Shown here: positions 1-51,724 of the stretch, one piece after another
How the letters are laid out: every line of letters begins with the position of its first letter
Numbering within the stretch: the stretch's first letter is position 1
NCBI GenBank assembly: GCA_947462335.1
Contig: OX381706.1
Location: 16,096,784 to 16,160,783 of the forward strand
Reading direction: 5' to 3'
Source: Harmothoe impar
Taxonomy: Eukaryota > Annelida > Polychaeta > Phyllodocida > Polynoidae
DNA: 64,000 nt
Program-made: the position numbers and the translations under genes
Notes under the pieces: generated by a model
What the model was told of the DNA's origin: nothing
Seen by the model: only the letters and a program-made list of their open reading frames with translations
Databases searched by the model: none

Positions 1-2540
1 AACTGGAGCTCTTTAGAGGAAATGCGATAATTGTAAAGTCTGAGGCAGCACTTCATAGCCCTATTTTGATTTCTCTCAATTTTTTTGGTCCATGATTTGG
101 AAGCAGAATCATATAGAAAGGCACAGTAATCAAATTTTGGGAGGATGGTCTGCTTGAACACTTTGATTGCAGTCTCCCTAAGCATCATGTGTCTTATTTT
201 AGTCAACTTAAAAATGAGAAAATTTGTACTTTGAACCACTGCCTCAGCTTGTTTTGCCATGGTAAGGCACCTGTCGAGAGTAACACCCAGATAGGAGAAA
301 GTTTGGACAAGTTGAATGGGCTTGCCATTAATAACCGGGAGTGAGTCTGGACATTTTTTGAAAGCCTGGGAGGTACAATACCAGGCAAACTTTGTTTTAG
401 CCTCATTAACAGTGAGGCCAAGGGAGATGCAGGTCCTGTGGATTACATCAAGATCACTTTGTAAATTCTGAAGAGCAGTTACAGGATTTGAATGTGTGGA
501 ATAAACTACTAAATCATCTGCATACATTTTGACTTTACAGTTTTTTGCAACATTCAAGATCTCGTTAACATAGAAAATGAACAGGGCAGGGCCTAAAACT
601 GAGCCCTGAGGCACTCCAAAGTCAATGGTTTTTGAGGAGGAGGTAACTCCTGAAACCGTAGTGGTTTGGCTCCGGTGAAAAAGATAGGATTTAAACCAAT
701 CCAGAATGTGTCTAGGGAAGCCAACATTTTTTAAACCAGTCATAAGCATATGGTGATGGACACAATCGAACGCTTTAGAAATGTCAATATAACAGGAAGC
801 AACAAATTCTTGTCTGTCTAGAGCAACATATAGGTCGTCACAGTACTCTAGTATTGCATCCGCCGTGCTAAAACCTTGCCTGAAGCCGTATTGTTTGGGG
901 GAAAGCATTTTCTCATTTGTGATACAGGTCATGAAGTAGTTTTGCATTAATTTCTCAAGTATTTTACTGGGGAGAGGAAGAATAGAAATTGGTCGCCAGT
1001 TAGAAATATTTTGGAGTTTACCAGTTTTCGGAATTGGGGTGACTACGGCTTCACACCAGGCTCGGGGGAAATACCCATTCTTGATGGAAACATTGTAGAG
1101 ATGAGTCATTTGTGGTACTAGAGAGAGAAGCGCATCTTTGAGAAACTTAGCACTAACATGCTTCATACCAGTGGATTTATGAATATCAATATCTTTAAAC
1201 ATGGATTCAATAAGAGGTTCAGCAAACACATCCGGAGAAGGACAGGAAGGAACATACAAGTCATCTGGGTCTTCATAGAGATGAGGAGGAAGGTTTAATT
1301 TTGAGTACAATACGCCCCCAATAGTACTGAAGAAGTCATTAATGTAGGAGGGGGTGTCGGTGACAAGTTCATTTGTTGTCTGATCAATGAGAACAGGTGC
1401 TAAACTACTCTGTGCCGGTTTGAGAATTTTGTTAATTTCTGCCCAAAATTTCCTAGGGTCACCCTTGGCATCCTCAATTTTGTTTATGAAATATGAGTCC
1501 TTGGCATTTCTTACCAAAGTGCTCACTACACCCCTGGCTAACTGAGCATTTTTCAAGTCTTGGGGAATAAAGGTTTTAATGAATTTTGCCGCCAAATCAT
1601 CTCTTTCTTTCATTTTAATAACAAGGTCAGGTGTGACCCAAGCATTACCAGTATTTTTAACTGTGAAGGATTTAATGGGACAGAAAATGTCTAGGAAAAT
1701 GTCTAGAATTGATGTTATAAAACTCCATTTTTCATCGATGGAAGATAACGCATAATACATATTCCAATCAATTTGATCAATGTACTCCAGCAGCAGTGGG
1801 TTTTTATACTTAGCATAGGAGCGCCCTTGAATATGTTCTATTACCCATGTATTTCTAGCCTTTTTACGAATAGCATACACAGGGAAGTGATCACTTACAA
1901 AAAAGGACAGGATGCCTTTCTTTGTTACAAATCTGGAAGAAGTTAGAATATTATCAATGGCAGAACCACCATCATCTTTAGGCCTTGTAATACCCTGGAT
2001 TAACCAGGTCAGACAAGAGTCCCTACAGAAGTTTTTTAGGGTAATGGTTTTGGTTTCAAGGGGGGTGAGCATGTTAACATTGAAATCTCCAAGAATCCAG
2101 ACTTCTTCATTTACATTAGTGACTAAGGGGGTGAGGAAGTCGCAGAAATTTTTTACCACACCTGAGGGGGGTCTGTAAACCGTTATCACTTTCATTGCCT
2201 TGTTCTTTGGCACTTCAACCTTCACAGTTAAACACTCAATATCATCATTTATTACACTTTCTTCATCAACCGTGTGTGAATAAGTATAGAGCTTGTTTGA
2301 TAAATAGACTATAAGGCCTCCAGCTTTGTTCTTTAGCCTATCAATTCTATGGAAGCCCTTCATATGCCATTGAATAAGAGAGGCATCGTATAGATCTGAC
2401 AACCAGGTTTCAGATAAAGTAACGACATCAAAGGCTTCCAAGGCAATCTGTACTTCTGGAATTTTTTTATGAAGGCTGCGGCAATTAAGGTGGCAGAATT
2501 TGATACCTTTTTCCTTTTTAATGGAATCTGAACTATCCAT
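1..2540 (-). CDS. LINE pol ORF: APE endonuclease + reverse transcriptase (3' end beyond window)
   Basis: I read this frame through without a stop from an ATG at 2540 to the left edge (at least 846 codons); it continues outside the window. The N-terminal part is an apurinic-like endonuclease: HLNCRSLHKK near residue 17, SETWLSD near 47, ILGDFN near 153 and SDHFPVY near 225. The middle is a reverse transcriptase: a block with ISKAFDCVHH near residue 592, GVPQGSVLGPALF near 640 and the catalytic KMYADDLVVY near 670 (plus-strand 505-533). These are the family hallmarks of target-primed retrotransposition enzymes. The clade (CR1, L2 or another Jockey-group lineage) needs a tree. The frame is open upstream of this ATG, so the true start could be earlier. 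It differs in frame from both upstream ORFs, so expression would need re-initiation, internal entry or a separate mechanism. Confidence 0.93.
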   Translation of the reverse strand, partial: MDSSDSIKKEKGIKFCHLNCRSLHKKIPEVQIALEAFDVVTLSETWLSDLYDASLIQWHMKGFHRIDRLKNKAGGLIVYLSNKLYTYSHTVDEESVINDDIECLTVKVEVPKNKAMKVITVYRPPSGVVKNFCDFLTPLVTNVNEEVWILGDFNVNMLTPLETKTITLKNFCRDSCLTWLIQGITRPKDDGGSAIDNILTSSRFVTKKGILSFFVSDHFPVYAIRKKARNTWVIEHIQGRSYAKYKNPLLLEYIDQIDWNMYYALSSIDEKWSFITSILDIFLDIFCPIKSFTVKNTGNAWVTPDLVIKMKERDDLAAKFIKTFIPQDLKNAQLARGVVSTLVRNAKDSYFINKIEDAKGDPRKFWAEINKILKPAQSSLAPVLIDQTTNELVTDTPSYINDFFSTIGGVLYSKLNLPPHLYEDPDDLYVPSCPSPDVFAEPLIESMFKDIDIHKSTGMKHVSAKFLKDALLSLVPQMTHLYNVSIKNGYFPRAWCEAVVTPIPKTGKLQNISNWRPISILPLPSKILEKLMQNYFMTCITNEKMLSPKQYGFRQGFSTADAILEYCDDLYVALDRQEFVASCYIDISKAFDCVHHHMLMTGLKNVGFPRHILDWFKSYLFHRSQTTTVSGVTSSSKTIDFGVPQGSVLGPALFIFYVNEILNVAKNCKVKMYADDLVVYSTHSNPVTALQNLQSDLDVIHRTCISLGLTVNEAKTKFAWYCTSQAFKKCPDSLPVINGKPIQLVQTFSYLGVTLDRCLTMAKQAEAVVQSTNFLIFKLTKIRHMMLRETAIKVFKQTILPKFDYCAFLYDSASKSWTKKIERNQNRAMKCCLRLYNYRISSKELQ

Positions 2541-3481
2541 AATTAAAGCAGACCGTGATGGGAGAGAATTGGAAGCTGGTGATGTGAGATGTGTAAAAAT
2601 GAGATAAACATAGGTAATGTTTAGCGCTAAAGGCAGCTTTATGACATACAAGGGTTCCAACAGGACAACTAGAACTATATACATTTGGGTAGCACAGTTG
2701 CCAGATTCTGCAACTACCACTGAGGCCCCTAAGCCACACATAATACACCAACAGTAACATAAGGGGGCGGTGTGGGGGGTTTTTCCGCGCTACTGATAAA
2801 CCACTGTTCATGTGGTTAGGGATTGAGACGGTAAGTCCCAATGGGAAAAATAATGATAATGGGTGGGGGGGGGGACATAAAATAGTGAAAAGTCTGTCAA
2901 GAGTTTGGAAAGGAAACTCCAAACAGGGAGACACCTTGTGTCAGTTGCAGAAGTTGGCAATAAGGAGTACATTGGATAAGTGAAACACATTATGCTGTAA
3001 GGCATACATTAATACAACGCAGGAAATGTCGAGCTGGCCGGAAGGAGGCCATGTCACACCATCCAACTCAGGAAGGCAGGACTCGGGAGGAGGCAGCACT
3101 CTGCGCTTGAGGTGACCCCTCCACAGATCTACCCAGGCTCAAGAGAGCCCGACATGGTTCAAAAGAACCAAGGTAAGAAAGGTGAGGGGGGTATTCTGTG
3201 GCATGGAAGTATAGCACAGCATGAAGTACTTGAGTTTTTGGGCTCGAGAGAGCCAGGTCAGGTTCCAAAGAACCGTAGCAGGAAGCCGTTGAATGCAGTT
3301 TCATAGTCCTTATAAAATAGCTACTAATTGAAGATGTGTTAGTATTGCTCGGATTTAAAATCAATAAATGCAATGTTCTAAAAACTGTTTGAAAGTGAAC
3401 AGCAGATAGGAAGTCCGGGAGGGACAACATGTTGAACCTAGAGGGTGCAGGGGGGAGAGGTATCAGTACTTAAGCACTGAA
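2541..3481 (-). other. Inter-ORF spacer of the LINE
   Basis: About 940 bp lie between the SGNH-like ORF and pol. There is no convincing coding sequence: short open frames of 65-133 codons occur on the minus strand but lack recognisable domains. The spacer contains a G-run near 2867-2875 and four members of the GGCTC-N4-GAGCC-type hairpin repeat between 3137 and 3274. The same hairpins occur inside ORF1. Confidence 0.6.
3137..3274. repeat. Four hairpin repeats in the LINE spacer
   Basis: Four 14-mers have perfect 5-bp stems and 4-nt loops: GGCTCaagaGAGCC and GGCTCgagaGAGCC, plus GGTTCaaaaGAACC and GGTTCcaaaGAACC. Both stem strands change together (GGCTC/GAGCC to GGTTC/GAACC), as expected when base pairing is conserved. 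In minus-strand reading they fall in different frames, so they do not encode one constant peptide here. Confidence 0.75.
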
Positions 3482-4387
3482 TTAGTGCTTAGAGTGGGAT
3501 CTGCAGTTTTGTCTGATGACCTTTCCAACAACCGAGGGAACAATCGGGGCAGTGAGGGCCGCTGCTCCACAGGTGGCTTTAGTAGCGAGTTGTACACCAT
3601 TTACTTCCACCAAATCCCTGAAAGAGGGGTCAGGGAATTTCTTCGTCCCTCTACTTTTGACTTCCTCGTAAGAGATATCTCCCTGAGGAATAACAACATT
3701 GAAGAAGACCTCTTCCACTGGCTGCTTAGGTTGGTCATGGGTGGAGTTTAGAGCTTTACCAATCATCACAGCCAGTTTGGTCTTGAAGGGGTGGGTCGGC
3801 CTGACACCATCTTTTAACAGGTGGTATTTGTACTTAACAGAACCTTTGACAGAATCATTCTTTCTCAAGCAGGTGTGAATATGTGGAGTGGCTGAGCCAG
3901 ACTCAATATTTAGACCTACAATATTGAAGTTTATTCTTACTAGGCTCCTCTCCAGTCTTGATTGAGAGCTATCCCTTCGCAGAGAACTGTTGGCCTTAGC
4001 TAGGCTGCAGGGGAGGATGGGGAGAATAATGACCTTGGTCCTGGGAGAGGAGGCAAAGATTTTATCTGTCAGACTATTGAGCTTTTCTGTCAGGAGGGAG
4101 ACACTCTCTGACTCCTGTTGATTGAAGTAATGGTAACCATTCATTTTGTCCACCAGATTGTATAAACCTAGTGAGATCAGTACTATATCAAAGCTGTTAT
4201 TCTTCAGGAAGTCCTCCAGGAATTGTGTAAAGTCCTCTACCCTGGCTCTGTATCTCAGAAAAGAAGTGATTTCATAGTCTGTAGAGGCCTGAAGTCTATC
4301 ATACATTCTGCGGAGTCTAGTGTCTCCTATCCAGAGGCACTTGGGGTTTGGAATATTCTTGGCCATGTTGTGTAGTTTTCCTGCCAC
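3482..4387 (-). CDS. SGNH/GDSL-esterase-like ORF of the LINE
   Basis: 301 aa. The order of features fits an SGNH-hydrolase fold: block I-like CLWIGDTRLRRM at residues 18-29 (Gly-Asp-Thr where Gly-Asp-Ser is usual), a block III-like FDIVLISLGLYNLVD near 65-79 with the conserved Asn, then KVIILPILP near 118, and a C-terminal DGVRPTHPF near 193 where an Asp-x-x-His motif is expected. The nucleophile Ser is Thr and the His position reads Arg (a His follows three residues later), so the fold is probably kept but classical esterase chemistry is doubtful. Esterase-like domains are known in ORF1 of CR1 elements. Here it is a separate ORF starting about 20 nt after the ORF1 stop and in another frame, a spacing that would suit termination-reinitiation. 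The last ~80 residues match nothing I recognise. Confidence 0.78.
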   Translation of the reverse strand: MAGKLHNMAKNIPNPKCLWIGDTRLRRMYDRLQASTDYEITSFLRYRARVEDFTQFLEDFLKNNSFDIVLISLGLYNLVDKMNGYHYFNQQESESVSLLTEKLNSLTDKIFASSPRTKVIILPILPCSLAKANSSLRRDSSQSRLERSLVRINFNIVGLNIESGSATPHIHTCLRKNDSVKGSVKYKYHLLKDGVRPTHPFKTKLAVMIGKALNSTHDQPKQPVEEVFFNVVIPQGDISYEEVKSRGTKKFPDPSFRDLVEVNGVQLATKATCGAAALTAPIVPSVVGKVIRQNCRSHSKH

Positions 4388-4407
4388 AGGTAAAGAGGTA
4401 GGGAACT

Positions 4408-7400
4408 TTAATTGGAGTTTGTTGAGGCAAGTGAATGGGAATGTGCAGAATCAGGGAGAATTTGTGTAGAAGTAGATGGTTCCTGTTCCATCAGAGCAGA
4501 ACGTAGCTTTTGCAGGAGAAGGCCATGCATGTTTTTCCCAGGGGTTCTTGTGCCATAGTCATAAGGAGTGTTCTTTCTGAACCGGAAAGAGACTCCTCCT
4601 CCCCAAGATCTATTAGCAGAAGCCTCAATTAGTGGGTATGGGTACGTAGAGATCAGGCGAGAAGCGAGATCTGACTTCGGCTTGAATTTGCATTCAAGTA
4701 ATTTATACATGAGGGTGGGTCTAATCCTTTCCCATTCTGCCCTGTTGGGGATGAAGATCTTGTTGCTCTCTTTTTTTATGTCTGAGGAGATCCTGAGAGA
4801 TAGGATTAAATCAGCAGTCTTTGTGGCTCCGGCATAGATGGCCTTGTAGTAAGCATAGGCTTGCTCCATAGAGCAGAAAGGTACGTCAATGCCCTCGTCG
4901 GTAACGTAGATTACTTCTTGCTGAAAGAAGTTAGACAGGTATGCCGTGTGGCCAGAGTAAATCAGACCTGACATTGTCAGCCTGATGTGCTCGGCTTCAC
5001 TCTGTGAACCCCAGCTCTGTTGACCCTGCTGAAAGGGGGGGTCTTCTCTCCTCCAGTATTCTTGGGTCGAGTTCCACGTCGCCAGTTGTGAGATAGAGTC
5101 TGAGCGGGCAGTGGGGTTCAAGTTCTGGGCCACATGTTGTTCCTGAGACTGACTCCCAGGAGAGCCCAGGGAGGGGGCTGAGAGTGCTGCAGTAGAACTG
5201 GCATGCTGCGCAGAGTTGGAATCTTGGTGCTGGGGTGCGAGGACGTGTTGTTGGCGAATTTGGTGCAAAGAATTGGATTGCTGGGTTTCAGCTGAGATTT
5301 GTTGTTTGTGTTGGTGGAGGAGAAGGTTAGGTGTTTCAGTTTGAGGTGAATGTGGAGGAGGTGTGTGTTGATGAGGCAGTTGGGTGGGGGGATGGTTTGG
5401 TGTCGGGAGTAATGGTAGTGTCTGTGGAGGTGAAGGTTGGGTTTGAAGTTGTTGGGGTTGTTGTAGGTGTTGTGGTTGAGATTGATGAGGGAGTGAAAGT
5501 GGAGGTGGTTGGGGAGGTGTTTGTTGAAGAGGAATGGGTGGAGGTGAGGGTTGTGTATGTTGTTGTTGTTGTTGTTGTATTGGAGGGGGTGGGGATTTAG
5601 GTGGGAGAAGAGGTTGTTGTGTGGTGAGGGGTGGAAGTGTGAGAGTGGGAGTGTGGTTTGAGGGAGGAGTGTTCTGTGGGAAAGGATAGGTGTTGTTTTT
5701 TTTGTTTGAGAAGATAGAAGGAAGGGAAGCAATGGTTTGTAGATGCATAAGCGATTGTCTTTGGTGGGTTTGGAGGTGGGAAGGTGTGTTTTCAGAAGTG
5801 TGTGAGAGGGAATGAGGGAGGTGCGAGGGTAGGTGTTGTTGGGGGTGTTGGTGTGAAATTGAAGCATTTACTTGTGCAGCAGGTCGTGAAGGCTGAGGTG
5901 GGAAATGTGGGAGAGCAGGCTTTGAAGAGTGGGAGCGCTGCCACTGCTGAATCAGCGGATGATCTTTCTGAAGCATTTGTTGCTTGGAGTAGTCGATCAT
6001 ATCTGAACCATTTGGCTTAGGATTATCAACAGGAGTTAAAGGCATTGAGTTCTGTCTTGGAGGAAGTAAGAGAGACTGCAGGACCATTGACACACTTCCA
6101 TCAGCAACTGAGTTTTGCTGTCTCGCAGCCGGAGCAGGTCTGACATATGTAGCTGCAGCGGGAGAATGTGCCACTGTGTCAGGGGAATTAGAAGAGGGAG
6201 GAGATTCCTCCAGATCAATGTTGTCAAGTACATCCATGCTAACATCTGGGACTTGGTACTGCTGGTCAAGATCATCCGACCTGAAATGGGGGGGGAGGTA
6301 GATTTGTGGAATGGTGTGAAGTCTATCCAGAGTGTAGACTGAGCCGTGTATGGTTATTTGGGTTTCAGTATACGGCGCAGGAATGTTTTTTACTACATTG
6401 TACCTGGAGATTGTTCTCATCCTATACTTTAGAGCTCTGGTCTCTTTAGAATCTTGTGCTTCTATTTGAACCCTCTCCATTCCATCTAATAGGACAATCT
6501 TTTCCCTAGCGGCAAGGAATCTGGCCTTGGCAGCCAAACTAGTGAAAGCAACCAGAAGCGGGGCAGGCCTGTCTCTGTCTATGGGGGTGTCAGCCTTGCG
6601 AAGTCTGGAAGTCCTGAAGATGTCACGGACTTCCATATCAAGACTGCATTCCCTGGAGATGCGAAGGACAACACCAGTTTTGTTTTCTCCTAGTGTTTCC
6701 GGGACGTTGTACAGCACTAAGGATCTAGTAATGTTTTCAAAGTTGAACCTGGTGGTAGTTTTGTTCTTTGTCAATGCAGAGAAGGATGTGGAAGGACCAT
6801 CAGAGGATACACAGAGCTCCTTTGTAAGGTCAAACACCTCTTCTGTTCTGCATTTGAGATCCAGCACCATATTTAACCCTATGTCAGGATCATCAACTCT
6901 AGACTGGAGAAGTGCAGTTTGGATCTTCAACTGATCTAGGGTTTCCGTGTTACCTTTAACATCAGCAGCATTAGACTCTAAAGTGAGGAGTCTTTGGATC
7001 ATAGAGTCAAGCTGAGTTGATTTATCTTTCAGCTGTTGAACTGCAGATTCATATTCAGACACCTGTTGAAGCCTTTCAGGGTCACCTTCTACCGCAATCA
7101 GCCTGGAGTGGAGATTTTGAAAGGCTGACGTGGATTCAATTGTGTCTACTCTGCTTTTTATTTTGCTAGCATCAGATTGAACCACAGACAGTGCAGCCGT
7201 TAGGACTTTGTCGTCAGCCTTTAGTTTAGAGATAATTTCCTCCTGAGACTCTTTCGTCTTTTTGACACTTGCAATACGGTCATGGACATCATCAAAGGCT
7301 TCAGCTGAACTCTTAAAATTGGCATTTATTGCAGTGCCTAGGGACTTGAATTTTTCATGTAGTCTGTTCGCCTTGTTTATAAGGAGCGTGTTGTTTGCGG

Positions 7401-9366
7401 CCTTGGAACTGATAGCCGCAATGGAACTTGACATTTCAATTTTACCGGTGTCAAGAGCAGTAATTTTAGCCTGGAGAGATTGTATCATTGACTCATTTTT
7501 GGTTGAGCGAGAGGAATTTGATTGCACATCAGATCTAAGAGGGAGATAATGCTGGTCCAGTGTTTTGGCAAGGATAACTTCAAGAGAGTCAAGGTCATTT
7601 ACTTTGGTCTCGACTGACTTGAATCTCCCTCCCATCTCTTCAAGCTTATGCGAGAAGTCTTTGAAGGCTAGCGACATGGATTCTTGAATTTCCTGTAGCT
7701 GCACAGAGAAATTGCTTTGAGGCAAGGTTTCCAAGAAGGAAAGCGAGAAGGGATCAGTTGGGCCTCCAAGGGATGAAGTTGAGGTGGTGGGGCCACCTGT
7801 ACACAGCACAGAAGTAGCTTCAGAAAGAGAGTGAGCACTGAATAGGGAATCCAGGTCTTCCAGTGTGACAGAGACAGCTGTCGTGTGTTGTGTCAGCTCT
7901 GAAGAGCCGGACTGTACCGGTTCAGAGGAGCCGGAAGCAGGTGACACAGAGGAGCCAGGTGGAGGAGCTGCGGTTGCAGCAGCAGAGCTGATCCTGACAG
8001 AGGGCTGTGTCAGCTCACAAGAGCCGAGAATAGTGGGCTCTAAAGAGCCAGGTGAAGGTACAGCTGTCAGGGAGGGTGGAGCCGTAATAGCTGATGAAGG
8101 ATGTAGTAGCTCGGAAGAGCTGGAGCTAGTGGGCTCAAAAGAGCCGGTCTCTGGCACTGTACTAGAAGAAAATACAGTGATATCCAGGGGATCTGTAGAG
8201 GCAGGTTGCAGGCGTAAGAGCTCAAGAGAGCCAGGTGATTTGGGCTCAGAAGAGCCAGGCAATTTAGGCTCAAGAGAGCCGGGCAGGGGATCCTCCGTAG
8301 GTGCAGGATTATGAGCTGGAGAGTCGTCATCCAGGTGGATGTCAGGATAGTGAAAATTGGCCCCATTGGAACTGGATGGTGAGTTAGGAAAACCGAGGAA
8401 ATCATGGGGACCAATTTCACTAGTTGTAACACTGACCTCCGAACCTATGTCTTCAAAGTCAAGACCATCAAGGATGATTGGTTCTCCGTCTATGTCCTTG
8501 AAGGAGGATAGGACATCTTGGAAATGGAAACCTGTGACAGCATTTTGTATGTCTTGTGTCAGGGAGGAGAGAGCGTAATTCTCCTCAGGAGGGAGGGGGA
8601 AGTGCAGAGCCACCTCTTCCATAGTGTATTTGGTACGTATCCCTGCTTGCATAATTTCGGAACCTACCAACTCCTGCCTGACCTCATTACTGCCTAGTGC
8701 CTCCAGAATTGGGTCACACATTATGCTAGATGTTGTGGATACATAGTCTGGTGGTAGGTCAGGATCAGTTAGCGATTCTTTTGCAATTTGGTTACTACGA
8801 TCAATTGACGATTTTTTTTCAGCATGGTTACTGTCAACAAATTTTCCCGTCAGGATGTCTTTACTCAAGCACAGAGAATTCGGGGTGAAATGTTGCTTAT
8901 CTAGAGTGTCATGTGCGGAAGTGCAGGATTGCTGCCTATCAGAGGAAATACTCTTTAATAGGACGTCAGCTGGTACAATAGCAGCTTTCGGCGTCAACAA
9001 GTTCAAACCTTCATCGGCGTCCATCGGAGTTTGTTTATTTACTCGGGAGGCGGTGGGCGGAAGTGGCGCAGAGGCCTTCGGGAATCCCGAAGCAGAACAC
9101 GTGGGAACATCGTCAGTGCTCGGTGGGACTCGGTGGGACTCGGGAATTTCCGAAGCAACCTCGGATTCCTCTCGGGCCTTGGTTACCCAGTTGCGACCTT
9201 CGGCAGTTTGCTTAGATACTGCCAAATTCTCGTCCCAAGAGCCGTCATCGTCATCAGAATAAACTTCTAGCGAGTCATTTACCTCCATTTTCCTTGCTAC
9301 ACCCCGGGTGAAGTAAGATTTTTCCGGAGTACTGCGCTTTTTCTTTTTTCGGCCAGTCCGCGGCAT
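4408..9366 (-). CDS. LINE ORF1: coiled coil + RRM-like + NADAR (YbiA-like) protein
   Basis: 1652 aa, intronless. In order: a basic N-terminus with RKKKKR at 6-11 (possible nuclear signal); an acidic and Ser/Pro-rich region with GSLEP/GSSEP-type repeats at about 355-500; a long coiled-coil region about 555-860; an RRM-like nucleic-acid-binding segment about 875-1025 (SLVLYNVPE near 884, as in LINE ORF1 proteins); a Pro/Gln/His-rich linker about 1115-1420; and a NADAR domain at 1466-1625. NADAR landmarks are YLSNFF near 1476, FCSMEQAYAYYKA near 1497 (the Glu and Lys of the family), KLLECKF near 1555, SWGGG near 1587 and GKNMHGLLLQKLR near 1610. Known NADAR proteins act on ADP-ribose-type N-glycosidic bonds, including ADP-ribosylated guanine. 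The conserved motifs look intact, so activity is plausible. The first three modules are typical ORF1 RNP architecture; the NADAR fusion is the novelty. A 5-codon upstream ORF precedes the start. Confidence 0.9.
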   Translation of the reverse strand: MPRTGRKKKKRSTPEKSYFTRGVARKMEVNDSLEVYSDDDDGSWDENLAVSKQTAEGRNWVTKAREESEVASEIPESHRVPPSTDDVPTCSASGFPKASAPLPPTASRVNKQTPMDADEGLNLLTPKAAIVPADVLLKSISSDRQQSCTSAHDTLDKQHFTPNSLCLSKDILTGKFVDSNHAEKKSSIDRSNQIAKESLTDPDLPPDYVSTTSSIMCDPILEALGSNEVRQELVGSEIMQAGIRTKYTMEEVALHFPLPPEENYALSSLTQDIQNAVTGFHFQDVLSSFKDIDGEPIILDGLDFEDIGSEVSVTTSEIGPHDFLGFPNSPSSSNGANFHYPDIHLDDDSPAHNPAPTEDPLPGSLEPKLPGSSEPKSPGSLELLRLQPASTDPLDITVFSSSTVPETGSFEPTSSSSSELLHPSSAITAPPSLTAVPSPGSLEPTILGSCELTQPSVRISSAAATAAPPPGSSVSPASGSSEPVQSGSSELTQHTTAVSVTLEDLDSLFSAHSLSEATSVLCTGGPTTSTSSLGGPTDPFSLSFLETLPQSNFSVQLQEIQESMSLAFKDFSHKLEEMGGRFKSVETKVNDLDSLEVILAKTLDQHYLPLRSDVQSNSSRSTKNESMIQSLQAKITALDTGKIEMSSSIAAISSKAANNTLLINKANRLHEKFKSLGTAINANFKSSAEAFDDVHDRIASVKKTKESQEEIISKLKADDKVLTAALSVVQSDASKIKSRVDTIESTSAFQNLHSRLIAVEGDPERLQQVSEYESAVQQLKDKSTQLDSMIQRLLTLESNAADVKGNTETLDQLKIQTALLQSRVDDPDIGLNMVLDLKCRTEEVFDLTKELCVSSDGPSTSFSALTKNKTTTRFNFENITRSLVLYNVPETLGENKTGVVLRISRECSLDMEVRDIFRTSRLRKADTPIDRDRPAPLLVAFTSLAAKARFLAAREKIVLLDGMERVQIEAQDSKETRALKYRMRTISRYNVVKNIPAPYTETQITIHGSVYTLDRLHTIPQIYLPPHFRSDDLDQQYQVPDVSMDVLDNIDLEESPPSSNSPDTVAHSPAAATYVRPAPAARQQNSVADGSVSMVLQSLLLPPRQNSMPLTPVDNPKPNGSDMIDYSKQQMLQKDHPLIQQWQRSHSSKPALPHFPPQPSRPAAQVNASISHQHPQQHLPSHLPHSLSHTSENTPSHLQTHQRQSLMHLQTIASLPSIFSNKKNNTYPFPQNTPPSNHTPTLTLPPLTTQQPLLPPKSPPPPIQQQQQQHTQPSPPPIPLQQTPPQPPPLSLPHQSQPQHLQQPQQLQTQPSPPQTLPLLPTPNHPPTQLPHQHTPPPHSPQTETPNLLLHQHKQQISAETQQSNSLHQIRQQHVLAPQHQDSNSAQHASSTAALSAPSLGSPGSQSQEQHVAQNLNPTARSDSISQLATWNSTQEYWRREDPPFQQGQQSWGSQSEAEHIRLTMSGLIYSGHTAYLSNFFQQEVIYVTDEGIDVPFCSMEQAYAYYKAIYAGATKTADLILSLRISSDIKKESNKIFIPNRAEWERIRPTLMYKLLECKFKPKSDLASRLISTYPYPLIEASANRSWGGGVSFRFRKNTPYDYGTRTPGKNMHGLLLQKLRSALMEQEPSTSTQILPDSAHSHSLASTNSN
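7895..8280. repeat. About ten hairpin repeats inside LINE ORF1
   Basis: Degenerate 14-mers of the form RGYTC-N4-GARCY recur at about 7895, 7920, 7945, 8011, 8037, 8108, 8132, 8219, 8242 and 8267. Most form 5-bp stems with 4-nt loops; AGCTCggaaGAGCT at about 8108 shows a paired change of both arms. On the minus strand they encode GSLEP/GSSEP-like pentapeptides. The same DNA motif also occurs in the non-coding spacer near 3.1-3.3 kb. Confidence 0.75.
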
Positions 9367-9378
9367 GACGAGTCACTT

Positions 9379-9396
9379 TCAGAGGAGTGCCGCCAT
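9379..9396 (-). promoter_or_regulatory. uORF and YY1-like motif just upstream of LINE ORF1
   Basis: On the minus strand AAAATGGCGGCA overlaps a five-codon uORF (ATG at 9396, TGA at 9379-9381) ending 13 nt before the ORF1 ATG at 9366. The AAnATGGCGGC core matches the YY1 consensus; YY1 sites set transcription starts in mammalian L1 5' UTRs. Function here is inferred. Confidence 0.4.
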
Positions 9397-9500
9397 TTTC
9401 CAAAGTCGGCGGTGGGCGCCAACAGTAAAAGTCAGTCACACTGCACAAATGTAGAGCAGAATCAGCCGATCTCTCGTCCCGATAGTCTTGGCACCTTCAC

Positions 9501-10136
9501 AAAAGGTTTGCAAGAAGTTCAGTTTGGGGGGGGGGGGGTTAACTTAAAAAAATTGAAAACCCGAGGGACTCGAACAGCGAAGTCGACTACTCCATTTTGC
9601 GCATGCGCAATGAAAACTGAATATCATATCAATAAACTCAGGTACATAACAAAAAAAAAGAAAGATCGCAAGCATGTTTATCTGTTCCTTTTTAGACTAA
9701 GCAAAAAGTGCACTAACTATAATAACTATGTGAGCTACAATGAAGCAAATAAAAAAAAAACAACAGCAGCACAAAATCAACATGAATAAATCAGATAAAA
9801 AATATTTTCGACAGAAATAATAAGCAGAAGGATTTGTACATGCCAAAACAGAATACATTGTATACAAAGGAAGGTTTGTAAAACAAATTTATAAAATACA
9901 AGAATAGTGTTCTTATTTATTTGCTTGTCTATAAACAAGACCCACCCAGACCCGCTTCTGCTTGTGTTGTAACTTGGTCTGTAGTCAAAGTCATCTCTGT
10001 AATGTTTTGTGAAAATCAAAACACATTATTTTGAGGAAAATAAATGCAAATGTGTATTCAAATTTTTAGAAAGGTACATCATTAAAAACATGATATATTT
10101 CACAAAGGTAAATTTTAGAAACATAAACAATGGATG
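9501..10136. other. Spacer between LINE and coiled-coil gene
   Basis: AT-rich sequence with a G-run at about 9526-9538 and A-runs. No supported gene. A TTTATT motif on the plus strand near 9916 could be the minus-strand poly(A) signal of the coiled-coil gene, unproven. Confidence 0.4.
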
Positions 10137-10304
10137 TACCGTATTCGACGTAATAAGTACACAGTGCGCCCAAAAAATGATTATGGACACCTTTTAGTAG
10201 CTAAGAGTTTAATTGGGATCAAAAATGCAGATATTTTTGGTTATTTCTAGTATAAGAATCGGCCAAAAACCGGGGGGTGTGCGCTTATTACGTTGAATAC
10301 GGTA
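10137..10304. mobile_element. TA-flanked MITE, GTATTCGACGTAATAAG family, copy 1
   Basis: Terminal inverted repeats CCGTATTCGACGTAATAAG and CTTATTACGTTGAATACGG are flanked by TA on both sides (168 bp), fitting a Tc1/mariner-pogo-type non-autonomous element. A sister copy lies at 42838-43022. Confidence 0.8.

Positions 10305-24480: not shown

Positions 24481-28132
<3,652 letters not shown>

Positions 28133-34024: not shown

Positions 34025-51724
<17,700 letters not shown>

Follow-up and report, generated by a model that had tools for sequence, protein, structure and literature searches.

A YbiA-family NADAR domain in ORF1 of a LINE-type element of Harmothoe impar, likely outside the L1/Tx1 group, and its possible action on ADP-ribosylated guanine

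What would a retrotransposon do with a NADAR domain? The question is raised by a long interspersed nuclear element (LINE) of the polychaete Harmothoe impar, which lies at the low end of a 64,000-nucleotide stretch (GenBank assembly GCA_947462335.1, contig OX381706.1, positions 16,096,784 to 16,160,783 of the forward strand), here called the window. The element appears to comprise three consecutive open reading frames (ORFs), all on the minus strand, namely, ORF1, a middle ORF, and ORF2, and the NADAR domain forms the C-terminal part of the ORF1 product (ORF1p).

4408 to 9366, minus strand: ORF1, 1652 residues, ATG start
4492 to 4944, minus strand: NADAR domain, ORF1 residues 1475 to 1625, recognized by the PF08719 profile, the predicted fold, and residue matches

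A preliminary description of this DNA, made from the letters alone, had read ORF1 as a frame of 1652 residues with NADAR/YbiA landmarks near the C terminus and had called for a profile search and a fold comparison. The frame was found as described, and both analyses agreed with the assignment. Pfam profile PF08719 matched the full ORF1 with 55.6 bits (E 9.7e-15; cut-off, 35.1), the landmarks falling at residues 1475 to 1625, and the NADAR piece scored by itself reached 60.9 bits. An AlphaFold2 model of the piece had a mean predicted local distance difference test score (pLDDT) of 82.6 and a predicted template-modelling score (pTM) of 0.79. The 49-sequence alignment used for it consisted of the window piece and 48 of 80 loci from a scan seeded with a smaller alignment (the window piece plus four of five phage records retrieved), near-duplicates being thinned by hand and a second set of 80 scanned loci being left out. 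In a fold search with the model, two PDB entries were returned at E <0.001, both of them NADAR/YbiA, and the nearest solved structure was that of a NADAR with guanine-ADP-ribose activity. Among the 45 best viral models matching by fold, 6 were RNA-virus replicase proteins or fragments. We consider it highly probable, given the profile, the fold, and the residues described below, that a NADAR domain is fused to ORF1 of a LINE-type element.

Searches with single sequences were less productive. Protein searches with the NADAR region gave nothing at E 0.01 (276 and 21 candidates), and with tblastn the piece drew 28 phage records at E up to 1. In locus scans, viral contigs yielded no relative of ORF1, ORF2, or the NADAR piece, and prokaryote genomes yielded none for the NADAR piece. 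Among 165 loci, none matched ORF2, the middle ORF, or ORF1 residues 1 to 1460 at E 0.01, a comparison of little weight, as loci from the seeded scan carry flanks of about 600 bases.

We then mapped onto ORF1 the 11 side chains of the Phytophthora NADAR that are named as holding ADP-ribose or as catalytic (PMC11543638), using a pairwise alignment and a two-residue numbering offset inferred from spacing. Seven of the 11 positions turned out to be identical (E43-E1501, K50-K1508, K75-K1531, W89-W1545, R93-R1549, E125-E1581, and W133-W1588). Three of these, E43, K50, and E125, correspond to E88, K95, and D171 of the Escherichia coli C7 NADAR, mutants of which lost the rescue from DarT1; in vitro activity was lost in the K95, D171, and E88Q mutants (PMC11543638). 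At these three catalytic positions, the ORF1 domain has E, K, and E, as does the active Phytophthora enzyme. The last-strand residue is Glu in the YbiA subfamily, Asp in BC4488, and His in the phage type (PMC11125620). By the alignment of E1581 with E125, the ORF1 domain belongs to the YbiA subfamily and lacks the Asp expected of BC4488/DarT1-associated antitoxins; a Pfam scan of the three long ORFs found no ADP-ribosyltransferase. We predict from these residues that the ORF1 NADAR is an active ADP-ribosyl hydrolase.

The kind of element that carries the domain was judged from ORF2, in which the following features were located.

3 to 2741, minus strand: ORF2, endonuclease-reverse transcriptase, 913 residues, open at the window edge
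1887 to 2486, minus strand: apurinic-type endonuclease domain of ORF2, residues 86 to 285
276 to 1034, minus strand: reverse transcriptase domain of ORF2, residues 570 to 822

A reverse-transcriptase ORF on the strand of ORF1 had been proposed, and RVT_1 matched it with 128.3 bits. The endonuclease profile Exo_endo_phos gave 24.8 bits, barely above its cut-off of 24.5, and Exo_endo_phos_2 gave 23.8 bits, below its cut-off of 27.4. With an endonuclease and a reverse transcriptase in ORF2, colinear with LINE-type ORF2 relatives, the element has the makeup of an APE-type LINE. In a protein search with ORF2, 5754 of 7973 scored candidates passed E 1e-10, and the best 120 were examined. The 15 best of the 120 aligned along nearly the full ORF2 at 32 to 36% identity, 14 of them beginning at residues 67 to 84, and the real start of ORF2 is likely at residue 68 (about position 2540), close to these starts. 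ORF2 runs past the low edge of the window, so the 3' end of the element lies beyond it.

The only organisms named among these 120 relatives were a stork (protein P0022) and a sea spider (P0104), whose best single domains scored 185.0 and 259.3 bits, respectively, with phmmer and the whole ORF2 as query. The stork reverse transcriptase is probably CR1. The best match in the PDB was human L1 ORF2p, at 52.1 bits for a single domain, obtained with the same program and query as the stork score but from a different database; the best R2 protein there reached 48.1 bits as a whole-sequence score. Some relatives hold more than one reverse transcriptase: P0002 has two copies (188.6 and 209.5 bits), and P0003 and P0004 have one each (569.8 and 579.4 bits). 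P0022 likewise holds two copies, and a value of 259 bits that added them together was discarded. The motif xPQGS(V/I)LGP, typical of the Jockey/CR1/L2 group, was found as a loose pattern in 85 of the best 120 relatives, and human L1 has GTRQGCPLSP at this place. The element thus likely belongs to the Jockey/CR1/L2 group rather than to L1/Tx1 (Tx1 belongs with L1), a call made from the motif and from pairwise scores against the stork, sea spider, human L1, and R2 proteins. If so, it would represent a second LINE lineage with NADAR.

The preliminary description knew of no LINE with this domain, which is incorrect: for the Pacific oyster, Crassostrea gigas, divergent NADAR matches to the Repbase ORF1s of several Tx1 LINE families have been reported, and for Ectocarpus a YbiA-family NADAR in Gypsy Pol, with the processing of RNA intermediates as a suggested role (PMC12477816). 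It had also held that the absence of any other genomic copy joining NADAR and a reverse transcriptase would point to a chance fusion; the oyster families offer a counterpart in kind. No other paper linking NADAR or YbiA to a LINE, or to a transposable element of any sort, was found in the open-licence literature, covered mostly at the level of listings; PMC10294476 makes no mention of NADAR, and PMC11203168 none of esterases or ADP-ribosylation. As far as these searches go, what is new here is a likely non-Tx1 LINE with NADAR, its residues mapped and its fold modelled.

Both published retroelements resemble the one described here in carrying a YbiA-family NADAR, which the oyster families likewise have in ORF1 (PMC12477816). 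The Ectocarpus element differs in being a long terminal repeat (LTR) element with NADAR in Pol and another mode of replication. The oyster families likely differ in lineage, Tx1 being kin to L1, whereas the ORF2 in the window scores 52 bits against human L1 and 185 against the bird protein; the ORF1s are compared by description. Among the Jockey-superfamily LINEs (CR1, L2, and Jockey, with type II/IV ORF1), ORF1 proteins of CR1/L2 lineages vary through domain shuffling, but the relevant parts of the two sources (PMC4120745, PMC3905857) do not list NADAR as an ORF1 domain; the ORF2 in the window is colinear with unnamed LINE ORF2s (32 to 36% identity, 15 best of 120). In polyproteins of animal RNA viruses, NADAR is tied to the replication polymerase or its ribonucleoprotein, as it would be here (PMC9503650), although these viruses lack reverse transcription. 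For the Phytophthora nicotianae NADAR (PDB 8bau), no retroelement link is mentioned in the parts of the sources that deal with it, and its R79, Y84, D86, and D130 are changed in ORF1; E. coli YbiA (PDB 2b3w) is a single-domain bacterial enzyme acting on riboflavin intermediates.

Whether the three ORFs form a single element was judged from their arrangement and from a hairpin repeat found in two places.

7895 to 8280, minus strand: hairpin array within ORF1, encoding GSxE(P/L) and SSxE repeats
3136 to 3274, minus strand: two hairpin pairs in the untranslated leader of ORF2, GGTTC-N4-GAACC and then GGCTC-N4-GAGCC

The middle ORF starts 21 to 42 nucleotides (nt) after the ORF1 stop, and the leader ahead of ORF2 is about 740 nt long. 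The palindrome GGYTC-N4-GARCC has nine exact sites, all within 3136 to 8280, where 0.12 are expected per 64-kb window, and none of 100 shuffles reached nine. Five sites lie in ORF1 and four in the ORF2 leader, the latter as two GGTTC..GAACC plus GGCTC..GAGCC pairs; a search allowing one mismatch added a single site outside the element, at 37432. On the sense strand, pairing is complete at eight of the nine exact sites, with one broken pair at 7919 in ORF1. In the hairpins at 3156, 3261, and 8108, both sides of a pair are changed relative to the commonest stem and pairing is retained; four folded stretches had z-scores of -3.8, -3.1, -4.6, and -2.9.

Much of the pairing in ORF1 follows from the protein repeat, as GSxEP codons alone nearly account for four of the five stem pairs. 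An excess remains after a synonymous-codon control: the 5-bp stem is retained in eight of the nine GSxE/SSxE units, variants counted, where the control averaged 3.37 (fraction 0.002 of 5000), the units being tandem and hence nonindependent copies. Rfam gave 10 matches on 1 to 9600, none at the gathering score, and the histone 3' stem-loop was not among them; binding of ORF1p or RNA dimerization by the hairpins would be a guess. Common to ORF1 and the ORF2 leader, the repeat is the window's best evidence for one RNA. Together with the common strand and the short gap, it leads us to infer that the three ORFs propagate as a single element.

If this is so, the fusion suggests a mechanism, which we put forward tentatively as having somewhat less than an even chance of being right. 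An active, ORF1-borne NADAR would strip guanine-linked ADP-ribose from the RNA or complementary DNA (cDNA) of the element in cis. The NADAR-bearing ORF1p would likely ride in the RNA-protein particle of the element and would bring the enzyme to the very RNA that encodes it, so that protection would act in cis; the ADP-ribose removed from guanines of the RNA or of newly made cDNA would have been added by host ADP-ribosyltransferases. NADARs of several branches, Phytophthora included, remove guanine-linked ADP-ribose (PMC11125620, PMC11543638), and the clam enzyme CARP-1 adds ADP-ribose to DNA at guanine N2 (PMC11209040). The preliminary description had offered three roles: stripping ADP-ribose from DNA or RNA, resisting host ADP-ribosyltransferases, and reversing PARP marks. 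The first two are in line with published NADAR biochemistry, and the third is the weakest. We infer all of catalysis, the guanine-linked ADP-ribose substrate, and a benefit to retrotransposition.

Several observations weigh against this mechanism. Four of the 11 mapped positions are changed (R79-N1535, Y84-P1540, D86-R1542, and D130 to a gap), and as three of them are on the adenine/phosphate side, the domain may have another affinity or substrate. In the multiple alignment used for the model, the lysine column falls at K1516, K1508 being given by the pairwise alignment alone; the model shows a single helix across E1501 to K1508 (residues 44 to 55 of the piece), in agreement with the pairwise placement. 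The NCBIfam equivalog model of the riboflavin-intermediate N-glycosidase, TIGR02464, scored 51.9 bits, below its cut-off of 73.7. We know of no host ADP-ribosyltransferase that acts on this element. No second copy of the element was found in the remaining 54 kb, where blastn of 1 to 9600 (E 0.13 and 0.44) and tblastn (E 0.39) stayed at chance level.

Two other uses of the domain are unlikely in our view but have to be considered. One is that it acts enzymatically on small molecules (free ADP-ribose derivatives, signals derived from NAD, or N-glycosides of the riboflavin type) or on the ends of RNA. The substrates of E. coli YbiA are riboflavin intermediates (PMC11543638), small ADP-ribose derivatives have been posited as targets of many viral NADARs (PMC9503650), the Ectocarpus authors suggested RNA-intermediate processing (PMC12477816), and some ligand contacts are altered in ORF1. 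However, the same TIGR02464 score speaks against a riboflavin-type enzyme, the nearest solved fold is that of a NADAR acting on guanine-ADP-ribose, the joining of the domain to ORF1p suggests that its substrate is a nucleic acid, and macromolecular targets are favored for the NADARs of eukaryotic RNA viruses (PMC9503650). The other, which we rate no higher, is that the domain is dead in catalysis and serves as a reader of ADP-ribose or RNA, aiding RNA binding by ORF1p or the finding of nicked targets. The same four altered ligand positions would fit such a module, and of the three NADAR domains in Caenorhabditis elegans SNA-3, one is without key residues (PMC9303266); the ORF1 domain, however, retains both active-site acids and the lysine, which binding alone would not require.

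It is improbable that the domain removes ADP-ribose added by PARPs to proteins or DNA ends where the element integrates, or that it counters antiviral factors of the PARP family. ZAP/PARP13 does restrict human LINE-1 and binds PARP1, but its zinc fingers by themselves suffice for restriction (PMC4441479), and the activity reported for NADARs is on base-linked ADP-ribose, with none on protein-linked or poly-ADP-ribose mentioned in the relevant parts of the NADAR sources. A one-off accident of fusion or assembly, with a host NADAR gene joined to a single copy and absent from the element family, would fit the single copy seen within the window but is very hard to credit given a NADAR lying mid-element in one 1652-codon frame, the next ORF 21 to 42 nt downstream, and the same kind of fusion in the oyster Tx1 families (PMC12477816).

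The removal of guanine-linked ADP-ribose in cis has a wider form, which we regard as doubtful: that animals ADP-ribosylate guanines of retrotransposon RNA or cDNA and that a non-Tx1 LINE independently captured NADAR as an in-cis eraser, in a germ-line conflict resembling that of DarT and NADAR. Bacteria are proven to ADP-ribosylate DNA bases reversibly. Among animals, clams and butterflies have ADP-ribosyltransferases that modify guanine, for which the sections of the sources concerned name no use against mobile DNA. If true, an eraser that a retroelement carries within its RNA-binding protein would naturally direct attention to an ADP-ribosylation defense, and the presence of NADAR in likely two LINE lineages, Gypsy elements, and RNA viruses would speak for repeated selection over accident.

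From the N to the C terminus, ORF1 comprises an acidic, Ser-Pro-rich N terminus, the GSxE(P/L) repeats, a coiled coil, a segment resembling an RNA recognition motif (RRM), a Pro/Gln-rich linker, and NADAR.

6934 to 7686, minus strand: predicted coiled coil, ORF1 residues 561 to 811, with partial heptad periodicity and sub-cut-off SMC/Rad50 matches
6283 to 6756, minus strand: RRM-like segment, ORF1 residues 871 to 1028, labelled by eye only
4987 to 6066, minus strand: Pro/Gln-rich linker, ORF1 residues 1101 to 1460, with 65 Pro and 64 Gln per 360 residues

The coiled coil of the preliminary description stood in part. Among eight overlapping stretches of residues 541 to 876, the heptad periodicity was reached by at most 2% of shuffles in four and by 6 to 7% in three; in the last stretch, it was reached by 45%. 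SMC/Rad50-type profiles matched at residues 556 to 818, far below the cut-offs of those models. No Pfam profile of the L1-type ORF1 (Transposase_22) matched the RRM-like segment, and AlphaFold2 without an alignment gave no usable model of it (pLDDT, 28.8). A phmmer search of the PDB gave two matches only, at E 0.76 and 0.9, neither of them a LINE protein; DCD (18.8 bits) and divDNAB (16 bits) were rejected as identities, both being under the Pfam cut-offs. A low-complexity ORF of 249 residues on the minus strand, at 5118 to 5867, overlies the Pro/Gln-rich linker in another frame of ORF1 and is likely a by-product.

The remaining frame of the element lies between ORF1 and the ORF2 leader.

3482 to 4387, minus strand: middle ORF, 301 residues from GTG or 294 residues from ATG at 4366

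It had no match in Pfam, NCBIfam, or the PDB. By eye, it contains SGNH-like motifs (WIGDT, SLGLYN, PILPC, and DGVRPTH) when set against the known SGNH block pattern, with GDT for GDS and DGVR for DxxH, so that Thr and Arg would stand where Ser and His are usual. Because of these two replacements, the product is probably not a working esterase and may be a dead one retained as a separate ORF. The esterase of a zebrafish element has the triad S143, D279, and H282, and none of the esterase ORF1 proteins of Repbase carried an RRM, according to the section concerned (PMC3905857). The element in the window differs from these in having its SGNH-like stretch in a separate ORF.

The remainder of the window resembles ordinary nuclear DNA, with stretches resembling exons of HADH (E 3.6e-6) and Miro/RHOT (E 3.7e-5). 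Just upstream of the element, 10137 to 10290 (154 bp) is 87% like 42838 to 42990 and holds a GGGGGTGTGCGCTTATTA-like motif; it is a dispersed repeat adjoining the 5' side of the element. At 24762 to 26557 are repeat copies with matching stretches of 142 to 251 bp (86 to 98%), three six-frame reads of which share 15 residues, possibly a short dispersed repeat family. Two SNORD14 (U14) genes with equal Rfam scores lie 400 bp apart, at 26903 to 26999 and 27303 to 27399, within a duplicated stretch (26902 to 27034 and 27302 to 27434) whose copies are 92% alike.
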